Notes under the pieces: generated by a model
What the model was told of the DNA's origin: nothing
Seen by the model: the letters and a program-made list of their open reading frames with translations, nothing else
Databases searched by the model: none
Position numbers and translations under genes: made by a program
DNA from: Xanthobacteraceae bacterium
Lineage (GTDB): Bacteria > Pseudomonadota > Alphaproteobacteria > Rhizobiales > Xanthobacteraceae
Direction: 5' to 3'
NCBI GenBank assembly: GCA_019635635.1
Contig: JAHBZB010000001.1
Location: 1,612,001-1,676,000 of the forward strand
Length of the DNA stretch: 64,000 nucleotides
In this document: positions 18,839-23,459 of the stretch, piece after piece
Numbering within the stretch: the stretch's first letter is position 1
Layout of the letters: the number at the start of each line of letters is the position of its first letter

Positions 18839-20128
18839 ATGACTCCTGCACAGACATATTACGAAGCCTCTTCGTCGCCGTTCTCCGCGCGGCAGCAACT
18901 CGTGCATGACGTCGATACCGATGTTTGCATAATCGGCGGGGGCTTCGCGGGACTTTGGACCGCACGCGCGTTGCAGCGGCGGCACAAGGATGTGGTGCTG
19001 ATCGAGCGGCGGCAGATCGCGTCCGGCGCGTCGGGAAAGAATGGCGGTTTCGTGTCCGCCGGTTTCAATCAAAGCATGTCCGCGATCTTCGCGCGGGTCG
19101 GCGCGGATCATGCACGCGCACTCTACCGGCTCTCGCGGCAGGGCGTCGATATCGTGCGCGAGGAAACCAGGCTCGGATTTCCCGGCATCAATCTGACGAC
19201 GGGTTATATAAAAGCCGCGGTGGAAGACGATGCCGAAGGCATCCAGCGCCGTGCGGAATGGTATGCGCGCGAACTCGACCACGACATGGAATACTGGCCG
19301 ACGGAGCGGGTGCGCGACGCGCTTCGTACCGGCGATTATTTTCAGGCGATGAATGAGCGGGATGCCTTTCACATCCATCCGCTCAATCTCGCTCATGCGT
19401 TGGCACAGGAAATCGAACGCAGCGGCGGCAAGATTTACGAGGATACGCCTGCGCTCGACGCCGACATAGACGGCGTGCGCAAGATCGTGAATACGCCGCG
19501 CGGCAAGGTGCGCGCCGAACACATCGTATTTTGCGGTAATTATTTTCCGGGCAGCGCGTTTCCGGAACTGGCGAGAACCGTATTTCCGGTCGCGACCTAT
19601 CTCGGCGTGACGCGGCCTTTGGGTGGGAAGATCGCCGACGCAATCCGCTTCGACGGCTGCATTCAGGACGAACGTAATGCGTTCAACTACTACCGCCAGA
19701 TTGGTGATCGCATCCTATGGGGGGCGGGAATTTCGATGAACCTGAAGCGCCCGCTCTATCTCGAGAACGACCTGCAAGAGCGCATCGCCGCGGTTTATCC
19801 GCAGCTTGCCGGTGCCGCGATCGAATCCGCGTGGAGCGGCAACATGGGCTTTTCTATCCACCGTATGCCGCAAATCGGCATGTTGCAGCCCGGCGCGTGG
19901 ATTGCGGGCGCGTTCGGCGGGCAGGGGCTGAATACGACGGCGATTGCGGGCGAATTGATTGCCTCGGCCATCGCGGAGAAGGACGACCGCTGGCGGCTTT
20001 TTATCCCGTTCGGGCTGGTGTGGGCCGGCGGTTGGTTCGGCAAGGCGTTCGCGCAGGTCAACTGGTGGTCGCGCAAACTGCGCGACCGCATCGACGACGC
20101 GCGAAAGAAAAGCCGGAAAGCCGCCTGA
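18839..20128 (+). CDS. FAD-dependent amine/amino-acid oxidase (DAO family)
   Basis: The 429-residue protein has the Rossmann FAD motif VCIIGGGFAGLWTARAL near residue 30, then IERRQIASGASGKNGGF, and a C-terminal GGQGLNTTAIAGELIA typical of the DAO group. It resembles gamma-glutamylputrescine oxidase-like enzymes, which oxidise secondary amines. There is no puu gene cluster, so the substrate is open. It is divergent from the phosphatase gene with 67 nt between starts. The start ATG has no strong ribosome site. Confidence 0.85.
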   Translation: MTPAQTYYEASSSPFSARQQLVHDVDTDVCIIGGGFAGLWTARALQRRHKDVVLIERRQIASGASGKNGGFVSAGFNQSMSAIFARVGADHARALYRLSRQGVDIVREETRLGFPGINLTTGYIKAAVEDDAEGIQRRAEWYARELDHDMEYWPTERVRDALRTGDYFQAMNERDAFHIHPLNLAHALAQEIERSGGKIYEDTPALDADIDGVRKIVNTPRGKVRAEHIVFCGNYFPGSAFPELARTVFPVATYLGVTRPLGGKIADAIRFDGCIQDERNAFNYYRQIGDRILWGAGISMNLKRPLYLENDLQERIAAVYPQLAGAAIESAWSGNMGFSIHRMPQIGMLQPGAWIAGAFGGQGLNTTAIAGELIASAIAEKDDRWRLFIPFGLVWAGGWFGKAFAQVNWWSRKLRDRIDDARKKSRKAA

Positions 20129-20166
20129 CGCTTTACAGTATGCGCCCGATCAACTCGAATAAAAAA

Positions 20167-20973
20167 TTATCGAGCTAACTCGCCGAAATTTACGTTGAAC
20201 GCTTTCTCTAGATATGCGCGTGTCCTTGGTTGGTTATTGAGTGACGCGCGGACGTTGGCAGTCATGAAGTAACTCTTGCTAGATTTTGCTTCGCTCGCGG
20301 GTACTGACTTAATCCATTTAACCAACGCGACATACTCGCACTTCTGATCGCTGTGTATATTGTTGTTCATTTTTTTACACTTGAGCGGAAGATCAATGAG
20401 CGGTCGTCCATTTATTCTTACATCTCGAATAGGGCGCGCCTTCTCTGCTATTTGGCCAATTCCAACATAGCCCTTACCTTTAAGGTATGCGGTAAAAATA
20501 TCTCCAACATTGAATCCAAGAATTGCTCTCGCCCACTGTCGTCCTTGACCTGCCGATATGAAGTTGAATTTTCTATAATCTTCCCATTGGCGATGCTCGC
20601 CCTGACCAACGTTGTAATAATAAATACCTGATTTGAAATCGAAGCCGGGCAAATCAATATGTAATGTATCGTGCGGTCTGAATTTGTTGGCGAAATGACC
20701 GGTAGCGATATTAGTAAGAGATTTTCCGAGCTTATAGAGAAGCGTTTTTTCGATAAGTAATGCCTCGGCCTCGGTAAGTCCCTTCGCTATGACGCGGACG
20801 ATGGGTTGCGAGCCAGATTTTAGGATTGCCTCAATTCGTCTTGTCTTTGCGGAATCGCCTTTGGCTGAGAGATGTGCGTCTTTTCGCGAATCTTTTCCTT
20901 TCCCATAATAAAACTCCTCGAAGTTTCGAGGGTCGATATAAACGTAAACGTAGTAGTCCATAGATAAAGTCAT
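20167..20973 (-). CDS. GIY-YIG nuclease-like protein with C-terminal PUA/EVE-like domain
   Basis: The 268-residue protein starts with a GIY-YIG fold: YYVYVYIDPRN (GIY strand), FYYGKGKDSRKDAHL (YIG strand and Arg), and a likely metal-binding Glu in EAEALLIEKTLL. From about residue 125, RKFNFISAGQGRQWAR, FNVGDIFTAYLKGKGYVGIG and AEKARPIRDV match my picture of PUA/EVE-like modules in DNA-modification sensors. This architecture would suit a modification-dependent restriction or defence protein, but that is inference. The DNA is clearly AT-richer than its surroundings. Its ATG follows the moxR stop directly (TAAATG), with the end of moxR (GAGGG) as ribosome site. A second ATG lies four codons in. 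Confidence 0.75.
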   Translation of the reverse strand: MTLSMDYYVYVYIDPRNFEEFYYGKGKDSRKDAHLSAKGDSAKTRRIEAILKSGSQPIVRVIAKGLTEAEALLIEKTLLYKLGKSLTNIATGHFANKFRPHDTLHIDLPGFDFKSGIYYYNVGQGEHRQWEDYRKFNFISAGQGRQWARAILGFNVGDIFTAYLKGKGYVGIGQIAEKARPIRDVRINGRPLIDLPLKCKKMNNNIHSDQKCEYVALVKWIKSVPASEAKSSKSYFMTANVRASLNNQPRTRAYLEKAFNVNFGELAR

Positions 20974-21816
20974 TTAACCCTCGCGGCGCGCGAGGAAGGC
21001 GAGCCGCTCGAAGAGGTGAACGTCCTGTTCGTTTTTCAAGAGCGCGCCGTGCAGCGGCGGGATCAGCTTTTTTGGGTCGCGCTCGCGCAGCGTCTCGGGG
21101 CCGATGTCCTCGACCATGAGCAATTTCAGCCAGTCAAGCAGCTCGGAAGTTGAAGGCTTTTTCTTGAGGCCCGGTACTTCGCGGATCTCGTAGAACATGC
21201 GCAGCGCTTCGGCGACCAGACGCTGCTTGATGCCGGGGAAGTGGACTTCGACGATCGCGCGCATCGTGTCGGCGTCGGGGAAGCGGATGTAGTGGAAGAA
21301 GCAGCGGCGCAGGAAAGCGTCCGGCAATTCCTTCTCGTTGTTTGAGGTAATCACGATGATCGGGCGCTTCGCGGCCTTGATCGTTTCGCCGGTCTCGTAA
21401 ACATGGAATTCCATGCGGTCGAGTTCCTGCAACAAGTCATTCGGAAACTCGATGTCGGCCTTGTCGATTTCGTCGATCAGGAGCAGCGGACGCTCCGCCG
21501 ACGTGAATGCATCCCAGAGCTTGCCGCGCTTGATGTAATTTTTGATTTCGGAGACGCGCGGGTCGCCGAGCTGGCTGTCGCGCAGGCGCGCGACCGCATC
21601 ATACTCATATAAGCCCTGTGCGGCCTTGGTGGTGGACTTGATGTGCCACTCGATCAGCGGCGCCTTGATTGCGCGCGCGACTTCCGCCGCGAGCACGGTC
21701 TTGCCGGTGCCGGGCTCGCCCTTGATCAGTAGCGGGCGCTCGAGCGCGATCGCGGCATTGACCGCAACTTTGAGATCGTCGGCTGCGACGTAGCTCTTGG
21801 TACCTTCAAAACGCAT
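20974..21816 (-). CDS. MoxR-family AAA+ ATPase
   Basis: The 280-residue protein has Walker A GEPGTGKT (near residue 37), Walker B LLLIDEIDKAD, and sensor 1 IVITSNNEKELPDAFLRRC. MoxR ATPases work with VWA proteins in chaperone-like or metal-centre maturation. The expected VWA gene is not adjacent; the likely partner is at 4839-6020 on the other strand, and the position behind moxR is held by the GIY-YIG gene. Confidence 0.92.
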   Translation of the reverse strand: MRFEGTKSYVAADDLKVAVNAAIALERPLLIKGEPGTGKTVLAAEVARAIKAPLIEWHIKSTTKAAQGLYEYDAVARLRDSQLGDPRVSEIKNYIKRGKLWDAFTSAERPLLLIDEIDKADIEFPNDLLQELDRMEFHVYETGETIKAAKRPIIVITSNNEKELPDAFLRRCFFHYIRFPDADTMRAIVEVHFPGIKQRLVAEALRMFYEIREVPGLKKKPSTSELLDWLKLLMVEDIGPETLRERDPKKLIPPLHGALLKNEQDVHLFERLAFLARREG

Positions 21817-21910
21817 TTCCGGCTCCGGGATTTCTCAAGGCGGCGCACCCTATGGGCGTCGTCCGTCACGGGCAAGGCGGTAATCCGGCAATCCGTTTTT
21901 GCGCGTTCCG

Positions 21911-21946
21911 CCCGGCAGAACTTGCCGGGACGGCAAAGCCTGCCGT
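21911..21946 (+). promoter_or_regulatory. Tandem ftr-like operators upstream of flgE
   Basis: Two adjacent inverted repeats, CCCGGCA-GAACT-TGCCGGG (21911-21929) and ACGGCA-AAGCC-TGCCGT (21930-21946), share the core GGCA-N5-TGCC. They lie about 100-120 bp upstream of the start expected from the sigma-54 element at 22011. That is the geometry of FlbD enhancer (ftr) sites in Caulobacter. Confidence 0.7.
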
Positions 21947-22010
21947 CCGGCAGCAGCCCCACTGGAATAAATAATATAATTATTTCAATGGCTTAACTCG
22001 TGATTGATGC

Positions 22011-22025
22011 TGGCATGCCCATTGC
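22011..22025 (+). promoter_or_regulatory. Sigma-54 promoter of flgE-flgK-flgL
   Basis: TGGCATGCCCATTGC keeps the invariant GG and GC 12 nt apart and matches the consensus TGGCACG-N4-TTGC at most positions. It ends 51 nt before the flgE ATG. Confidence 0.85.
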
Positions 22026-22076
22026 CAATTGGTCGTGGGGCCCGCACGCGCGCGGCCGGGATTTCGGAGGAGTGTA

Positions 22077-23459
22077 ATGGGTATCTTCGGTGCAATGACG
22101 AACGCGGTTGGCGGTCTGCAGGCGCAGTCCTACGCGCTCGAAAACATCTCGGGCAATATCGCAAATTCGCAGACCACCGGGTTCAAGCGCGTTGATACGA
22201 GCTTCGCCGACATGGTCGCGAGCTCCAGCGCCAAGCGCCAGTCCTCCGGCGGCGTGGTCGCGCTCTCGCGCCAGACCAATAACGTGCAGGGCGACATTCA
22301 GACCGCCGGCGTCGATACCTACATGGCGATCAAGGGCGATGGCTACTTCGTCGTGCAGAAGCCTTCCGCTTTCCCCGACGGGCAGCCAACCTTCGTCGGC
22401 GTCGATCTCTATACCCGCCGCGGCGATTTCGAGCTCGACAAGAACGGCTATCTCGTCAACGGCTCGGGCTATTACCTGAAAGCGCTGCGGGTCGATCCGA
22501 CTACCGGCAACACCGTCGGCAGCGTGCCGGAAGTGCTGCAATTCACCAATGACTTCCTGCCGTCGCAGACCACGACGATCATCGAATATCGCGCGAACCT
22601 GGCGAGCCTGCCGCGCAACCAGTCCTACACCAACGCGCCCGACACGCCGGGCAGCGAACTTCTCGTGCCCGGCGCGTTCACCGGCAGCGATCCTCGCGCT
22701 TCGGGCGATGGCACCGTGGAAGGCGCGGACGTCAACACCTTCCTCGAGCAATCGGTGGCCGGCGGCGCGGTCACGGTTTACGACGCGCTCGGCAATGAAG
22801 TGAACGTGCAACTGCGCTGGGTGAAGACGGATTCGGCTGCGACCGGCACCAGCGACACCTGGGAACTGTTTTACCAGACCAATTCGAATCCGGGCACGAC
22901 CGATGTCGCGTGGCAGAACGTGGGCCAGGTCTATGAATTCAACGCGAGCGGCATTCTCACGCCGAACATTCCGGCGGTGACGATCACCGGGCTTACCGTC
23001 AACGGTGTCGTGATCGGCGACGTCATTCTTTCGCACGGCAACGCCGGTGTCACGCAATTCGCCGACGCGAACGGCGTCGCTAAAGTGAACCTCCTGACCC
23101 AGAACGGCTACGCGGCGGGCGAACTGCAATCGATCGCGGTGAACGACAAGGGCCGCATCGTCGCGAGCTATTCGAACGGCCGCTCGATCGACATTGCCGA
23201 GATTCCGCTGGCAAGCTTCCTCGGCGACAACGCCTTGAAGCGTCTCGACGGCGGCGCATTCGAGGCGACCTCGGAATCGGGGCCTGCGATCTACGGCGCA
23301 TCCGGGCAGATCGTTGGCAAGTCGCTGGAAGGCTCAAATACGGACATAGCGGACGAGTTCACGAAACTGATCGTGACGCAGCAGGCTTATGCCGCGAACA
23401 CCCGGATCGTGACTACGGCCGACCAGATGTTGCAGGAAACGATCAACATGATCCGCTAA
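22077..23459 (+). CDS. flgE: Flagellar hook protein FlgE
   Basis: The 460-residue protein has the N-terminal rod/hook signature (MGIFGAMTNAVGGL, ISGNIANSQTTGFKRVD) and the matching C-terminal helix (VTQQAYAANTRIVTTADQMLQETINMIR region). It polymerises into the flexible hook joining basal body and filament, exported by the flagellar type III system. GGAGG lies 6 nt before the ATG; the frame to 22029 is not used. It is the first gene of a flgE-flgK-flgL operon behind a sigma-54 element. Confidence 0.95.
   Translation: MGIFGAMTNAVGGLQAQSYALENISGNIANSQTTGFKRVDTSFADMVASSSAKRQSSGGVVALSRQTNNVQGDIQTAGVDTYMAIKGDGYFVVQKPSAFPDGQPTFVGVDLYTRRGDFELDKNGYLVNGSGYYLKALRVDPTTGNTVGSVPEVLQFTNDFLPSQTTTIIEYRANLASLPRNQSYTNAPDTPGSELLVPGAFTGSDPRASGDGTVEGADVNTFLEQSVAGGAVTVYDALGNEVNVQLRWVKTDSAATGTSDTWELFYQTNSNPGTTDVAWQNVGQVYEFNASGILTPNIPAVTITGLTVNGVVIGDVILSHGNAGVTQFADANGVAKVNLLTQNGYAAGELQSIAVNDKGRIVASYSNGRSIDIAEIPLASFLGDNALKRLDGGAFEATSESGPAIYGASGQIVGKSLEGSNTDIADEFTKLIVTQQAYAANTRIVTTADQMLQETINMIR

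Follow-up and report, generated by a model that had tools for sequence, protein, structure and literature searches.

The stretch of Xanthobacteraceae DNA analyzed here (64,000 nucleotides, hereafter the window) carries a gene for a protein of 268 amino acids, probably a modification-dependent (type IV) restriction endonuclease that works alone; this single protein most likely defends the cell against phages whose DNA is chemically disguised. Its N-terminal half is, on profile evidence, a LEM-3-like GIY-YIG nuclease, its C-terminal half has the predicted fold of modified-base readers, and the best reading of this pairing is a natural reader swap on the nuclease of CMoRE (PD-T4-3). The preliminary description of this DNA had located the open reading frame and quoted motifs of its translation, both of which proved exact on the minus strand (Table 1), and had argued for a sensor and a cutter in one polypeptide, a logic supported by matches to both domains (the reader by fold) in a gene unlike a host-like housekeeping gene. 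It is refined here, since the nuclease is kin specifically to CMoRE/PD-T4-3, and the reader is assigned to an EVE/YTH-like family corresponding to the C-terminal part of PADLOC PDC-S11.

Table 1. The fusion gene, its predicted domains and its insertion site, in positions of the window
Feature	Position	Strand	Basis
GIY-YIG + EVE/YTH-like reader protein P0001, 268 aa	20167..20973	-	ORF, profiles, models
LEM-3-like GIYxY-YIG nuclease domain, residues 5-98; Y8, Y10, Y22, G24, R30, H34, E75, N88 present	20680..20961	-	
EVE/YTH-like (PUA superfamily) predicted reader domain, residues 112-264; matches C-terminal part of PADLOC PDC-S11	20182..20640	-	
Inserted segment of ~840 bp, absent between moxR and oxidase gene in congener G002	20134..20973	.	
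GAGGG within last moxR codons, 4 bases before ATG; possible ribosome-binding site	20978..20982	-	
MoxR-like AAA ATPase gene, host flank of insertion, outside the system	20974..21816	-	

The fusion gene is a clean single-gene insertion of foreign composition and was acquired. Its ATG directly follows the TAA of the moxR-like gene, flush as first described, and its G+C content of 44.0% (44.6% at third positions) compares with 60.4% (81.1% at third positions) in moxR and 61.9% across the window, bearing out the earlier remark that it is far more AT-rich than its neighbours; when G+C was taken over 1264 stretches of 807 nt (mean 0.619, sd 0.031), the minimum fell on the one starting at 20151, within the fusion-gene locus. 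When the host genome (3.37 Mb) was compared with seven congeners, the protein had no match in any of them (0/7), and moxR was present in all seven with a protein identity of 97-99%. The end of moxR (window position 20974) runs, in congener G002, straight into the end of the oxidase gene (position 20133), with DNA identities of about 90% and 87% on the two sides of the junction, and the window therefore holds approximately 840 bp extra; the inserted piece contains the fusion gene only, so the acquisition that had been suspected from its composition is confirmed by an empty site. The moxR and oxidase genes are also adjacent in G007, G006, and G001, 20-131 bases apart in the alignments, and in G003, G004, and G005, where the oxidase gene has no match, it is the next gene but one that comes after moxR. 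A search for repeats round the insertion gave nothing of use, and the 4-base TAAA seen at both ends is too short to carry meaning. Given the GAGGG that lies 4 bases before the ATG, translation of the fusion gene could be coupled to that of moxR.

The GIY-YIG-like N-terminus of the preliminary description was upheld. Pfam PF22945 (LEM-3_GIY-YIG) matches residues 21-98 (E=3.7e-9; 37.2 bits vs the curated cut-off of 27), the PADLOC PD-T4-3 profile matches residues 5-98 only (1.2e-10), and the only PDB sequences at E<=1 were 9u75 (E=7.2e-6) and 9u7u (E=5e-5), both E. coli CMoRE enzymes; the window protein had no match in NCBIfam. A fold search with the AF2 model of the whole protein (overall pLDDT 67.3; 84-93 in blocks between residues 11 and 70) ranked the CMoRE structures first with 4.5e-7, where a TM of 0.28 and an rmsd of 15.5 mean that the match concerns one domain and not the whole protein. 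The residues listed in Table 1 for the nuclease domain were invariant in 18/18 aligned nuclease domains; in a wider set, the position of H34 is occupied by G in 3/12 viral domains. The GIYxY-YIG motif is present with its third tyrosine, as Y8, Y10, and Y22 fall on the tyrosines of CMoRE in the alignment. Judged by sequence, this half is a LEM-3-like GIY-YIG nuclease domain with its catalytic residues kept, kin to CMoRE/PD-T4-3. The loop between H34 and K43 comprises 8 residues in all five known fusions, compared with 12-23 in 14 of the 15 CMoRE-labelled domains and 8 in the remaining one, and the window copy of this loop has a net charge of 0, the other four fusions having 0, -3, -3, and -4; the inserted lid of CMoRE is therefore absent, with some relatives, among them those in G580 and G1165, retaining acidic residues in the short loop.

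The same kinship was recovered in a tree of 34 nuclease domains over 113 columns, built without the broken copies L025 and L038; the domain is short, and 16 of the 31 inner branches are weak. The three intact fusions form one clade (96/91, starred) that joins the 15 CMoRE-labelled domains (90/87) at 91/92, apart from the 12 viral domains. Eight of the CMoRE labels, L062 among them, were confirmed by the PADLOC PD-T4-3 profile and seven were given by the look of the C-terminus, the least sure being L080 (a truncated ORF) and L065. L062 itself (positions 1-2241, genome G850) is an open frame of 747 amino acids that runs to the end of the locus, with the CMoRE-like part at 490-702 and, before it, approximately 490 residues without a Pfam match. 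A short CMoRE-like GIY-YIG ORF (157 aa) was also seen amid ORFs that are McrBC-like by eye (L085:4895-10214, genome G1148). On viral contigs (L036, L037, and L103-L120), LEM-3-like GIY-YIG domains occur with the same YYVYVY start, and the tails of several such proteins look like what we take to be NUMOD motifs. One of them, L036, matches PADLOC HEase (2.3e-7), and the match in Pseudomonas phage OBP is annotated as a "putative homing nuclease."

For the C-terminal half, residues 116-261 match PADLOC PDC-S11 with an E-value of 7.3e-33, over profile positions 207-356 of 358 only. Pfam, searched with the window protein at E<=1, listed LEM-3_GIY-YIG alone, with neither EVE (PF01878) nor any other family on the reader half, and weak EVE matches were obtained in three of eight relatives, the best at 0.0026. 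Modelled alone (AF2, 27 sequences), the reader reached a pLDDT of 91.5 and a pTM of 0.86. Foldseek with this model gave a best E-value of 1.9e-4 and TM values of 0.34-0.53 to the best matches, and its structural matches comprised PH1033, YTH m6A readers, EVE proteins, THYN1 with 5mC DNA, ASCH, and VcaM4I. A second structural comparison gave Z 11.0 against PH1033 (2.7 A over 117 residues) and Z 10.2 against VcaM4I over 122 residues, at 6% sequence identity. The model thus predicts, with high confidence, that this domain folds like the EVE/YTH modified-base readers of the PUA superfamily. Conserved residues of the domain include W130 and W220. Compared by hhalign, the reader family matched 12 EVE proteins from related genomes weakly (probability 36.9%, E 3.6e-4) and seven CMoRE sensors with a probability of 0.4%, and at the level of sequence profiles it is unrelated to CMoRE's own sensor. 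The PUA/EVE-like C-terminus proposed earlier consequently stood by predicted fold and failed by Pfam match, and its EVE kinship is a statement about fold.

The reader is common to several types of effector. Among 33 distinct reader ORFs, 25 carry a NucS-like nuclease, five a GIY-YIG domain (both broken copies included), one GmrSD, and one TIR, and one (L055), which begins inside the domain, was left without class; since the searches began from the reader domain, these counts are not census figures. A text pattern assigned 23 of the NucS-like class and two were moved there by hand, L034 on a Pfam NucS_C match of 7e-4, below the family cut-off, and L056 as read by eye, whereas GmrSD (L041) and TIR (L053) come from Pfam. 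The GmrSD protein (L041:4174-6468, on a plasmid of Cyanobacterium sp. HL-69) has 764 amino acids, and in it the reader comes after both the N- and the C-terminal GmrSD domain. In Leptolyngbya sp. BC1307, an ORF of 513 amino acids (L053:4380-5918) joins TIR (PF13676, 3.9e-22) to two tandem readers, possibly a TIR system triggered by modified DNA. NucS-like proteins with the reader (L040, L043, and further plasmid matches) occur on many enterobacterial plasmids, and the 43 plasmid matches obtained include 20 Providencia and six Klebsiella records, with 31/43 typed as conjugative.

The fusion of GIY-YIG and reader is known from five copies: that of the window, those of genomes G580, G1165, and G186, and that of a conjugative plasmid of Lichenihabitans psoromatis, so that the architecture of the window protein recurs in four relatives, two of them intact and two broken. 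The G580 protein is intact and 54% identical to it, and the G1165 protein is intact and 71% identical to that of G580. In G186, the frame is broken in the second tyrosine motif, possibly by an assembly error; the plasmid copy, 52% identical, lacks the first approximately 29 residues beside an IS3 transposase gene and has a frame change near its end. Matches of any kind, own genome or search centre included, were found in 4/61 relatives, 10/385 genomes of the class, 22/397 of the order, and 5/60 relatives of G580, and, with the reader profile only, in 8/398 of the phylum. A housekeeping gene was ruled out, given the absence from 7/7 congeners and the fact that the three matches among the 61 genomes other than the host's own cover one half only. 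Of 72,556 plasmid records 43 match, a single one along 80% or more of the protein, and all phage-record matches (10/10) are confined to the nuclease half. No listed ORF was flagged for the reader among 20 loci of viral contigs, the alignment of L036 reaching residue 186 in an ORF not so flagged, and a single-protein scan of genome contigs found no relative. Between the window and G580 genes, 183 differences lie at third codon positions and 63 at second ones; the divergence from the relatives, mostly at third positions, records selection along all branches and not in this host alone.

The neighbourhoods of homologues, whose survey had been suggested, were compared. In G186, the fusion gene lies behind ORFs that match PDC-M57B (2.8e-85) and, weakly, DpdC and PDC-M57A (1.5e-4 and 7.3e-4), all of them behind a transposase. 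The window copy has only moxR and the oxidase gene at its sides, with no defence island, and that of G1165 follows genes that are ATP-synthase-like as read by eye. The PDC-M57B-like ORF and a DUF6884/DpdC-like ORF lie directly upstream of the broken G186 gene (L076:8117-9474), a possible three-gene defence cluster. In G580, the gene is near a protein kinase and a weakly RuvC-like ORF, the kinase resembling those of PD-T4-6 and Mads, as many kinases might. The host genome has one C5-methyltransferase-like and one N6/N4-methyltransferase-like gene. The former is beside unassigned ORFs, of which one is GIY-YIG-like by eye, and the locus (L084:2127-7589, contig positions C1:124000-132000) may be a restriction-modification cluster.

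We envisage that the EVE/YTH-like domain would flip out and hold a modified base of invading DNA, most likely a cytosine modification of the phage type, that the DNA so held would stay near the N-terminal GIYxY-YIG nuclease, and that the nuclease would then cut beside the modified site; unmodified host DNA would not be held and would thus be spared. Because of the host's methyltransferase-like genes, a reader of 5mC or m6A in general would damage the cell that carries it, and a phage-type modification such as 5hmC or a larger one would be the likelier target, although a context-dependent 5mC reader would also be compatible. The type IV role is supported by the kinship of the nuclease, in sequence, fold, and tree, to the tested type IV enzyme CMoRE; by the match of the reader model to modified-base readers, including the EVE-HNH endonuclease VcaM4I; by the fusion of the same reader to NucS-like nucleases, GmrSD, and TIR; by the foreign composition, the empty site, and the candidate defence genes before the G186 relative; and by the preponderance of third-position differences among the relatives. 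Against it weigh the lack of a Pfam EVE match, the weak family-to-EVE profile match, and the low TM values of the reader, as well as the place of the window copy outside a defence island, the broken state of 2/5 known copies, and the host's C5-methyltransferase-like gene, with which a general 5mC reader would be harmful.

A clean single-gene insertion together with homing-like viral relatives of the nuclease half (the HEase match of L036 and the phage OBP annotation) made us consider a free-standing GIY-YIG homing endonuclease, that is, a selfish gene inserted between moxR and the oxidase gene that would cut the empty allele. However, the protein carries a domain of the base-reader type and gave no match to NUMOD in Pfam, its nuclease groups with CMoRE and not with the 12 viral domains, and its relatives are at unrelated sites; on domain content, tree, and scattered sites, this candidate was rejected as very unlikely. 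The presence of YTH m6A-RNA readers among the best structural matches suggests another role, with modified RNA as the ligand of the reader and with either cleavage of RNA or RNA-DNA intermediates or a part in repair, rather than restriction, as the function of the protein. We regard this as improbable, since a type IV enzyme that cuts DNA is related to the nuclease half and the partners of the reader elsewhere include GmrSD and NucS-like DNA nucleases, and repair fits poorly with an absence from all seven congeners.

The gene might also be an acquired but silent or decaying one that serves no function in this host today. Breaks are seen in two of the five copies, the composition is still foreign, and no sigma-70-like promoter was found in 19900-22100 (0 vs 1.2 expected by chance). 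Nevertheless, the ORF of the window is unbroken and retains the catalytic residues, differences between copies are mostly at third codon positions (a record of all branches), and the start behind moxR has GAGGG at a fitting distance, so that the gene could be expressed with moxR; decay is thus also an unlikely account, and the preferred reading continues to be a type IV endonuclease.

More tentatively, and with the odds somewhat against it, the reader might be a portable immune sensor family for a phage base modification outside the range of CMoRE, employed in at least four effectors (GIY-YIG, NucS-like, GmrSD, and TIR), with DNA cutting in some and cell stopping in others; the window protein would then be a CMoRE-nuclease reader swap that works without the acidic lid, the reader alone sparing host DNA. 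If so, the CMoRE nuclease would be a module naturally paired with unrelated readers, one unnamed reader would serve several defence effectors, exchanging it among nucleases would put its target to a direct test, and the mapping of DNA modifications might gain a new enzyme specific for a modified base. The missing lid would offer a clear way to test what keeps such enzymes from harming their own cell.

Among known systems, the class of EVE and GIY-YIG fusions is already predicted in print: a 2020 survey of EVE domains reports "numerous" proteins in which EVE is fused to a PLDc or a GIY-YIG nuclease, alongside putative type IV enzymes, and also names EVE with PD-(D/E)XK and, rarely, with GmrSD (PMC7641849). 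These share with the window protein the domain pairing and the predicted role, and the comparison is by description, as the survey's text on them names no GIY-YIG or EVE subfamily; TIR does not occur as a whole word in its main text. No experimental study of the GIY-YIG and reader family was found in PubMed Central titles and abstract openings. PADLOC PDC-S11, a candidate phage defence, has the same reader joined to a NucS/DUF91-like nuclease, where the window protein has GIY-YIG. VcaM4I (PDB 6YEX), an EVE-HNH modification-dependent endonuclease whose EVE domain is described as flipping 5mC or 5hmC into a hydrophobic pocket (PMC7897488), likewise fuses an EVE-like sensor to a nuclease, but that nuclease is HNH, the sensor is N-terminal, and the two readers align with the low identity given above. 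CMoRE is closest, being a tested type IV enzyme that cuts DNA with 5hmC or glucosyl-5hmC, in most but not all members of which an inserted acidic loop lies over the active site; removal of the loop's charges is reported to let the enzyme cut ordinary DNA and to slow growth (PMC12923530). The same report found no homologues for the CMoRE sensor and distinguished four types of the enzyme, of which three possess an additional domain (PMC12923530); one of these three may resemble the window protein. CMoRE and the window protein are both one-gene systems of similar length and sisters in the nuclease tree, with an N-terminal GIYxY-YIG nuclease (PDB 9U75 and 9U7U), the same catalytic residues, and a C-terminal sensor. 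A plain CMoRE member is nevertheless ruled out by the unrelated sensor and the short lid loop: where CMoRE has its own sensor and an acidic lid, the window protein has a reader of EVE/YTH-like predicted fold and a loop of 8 residues without net charge.
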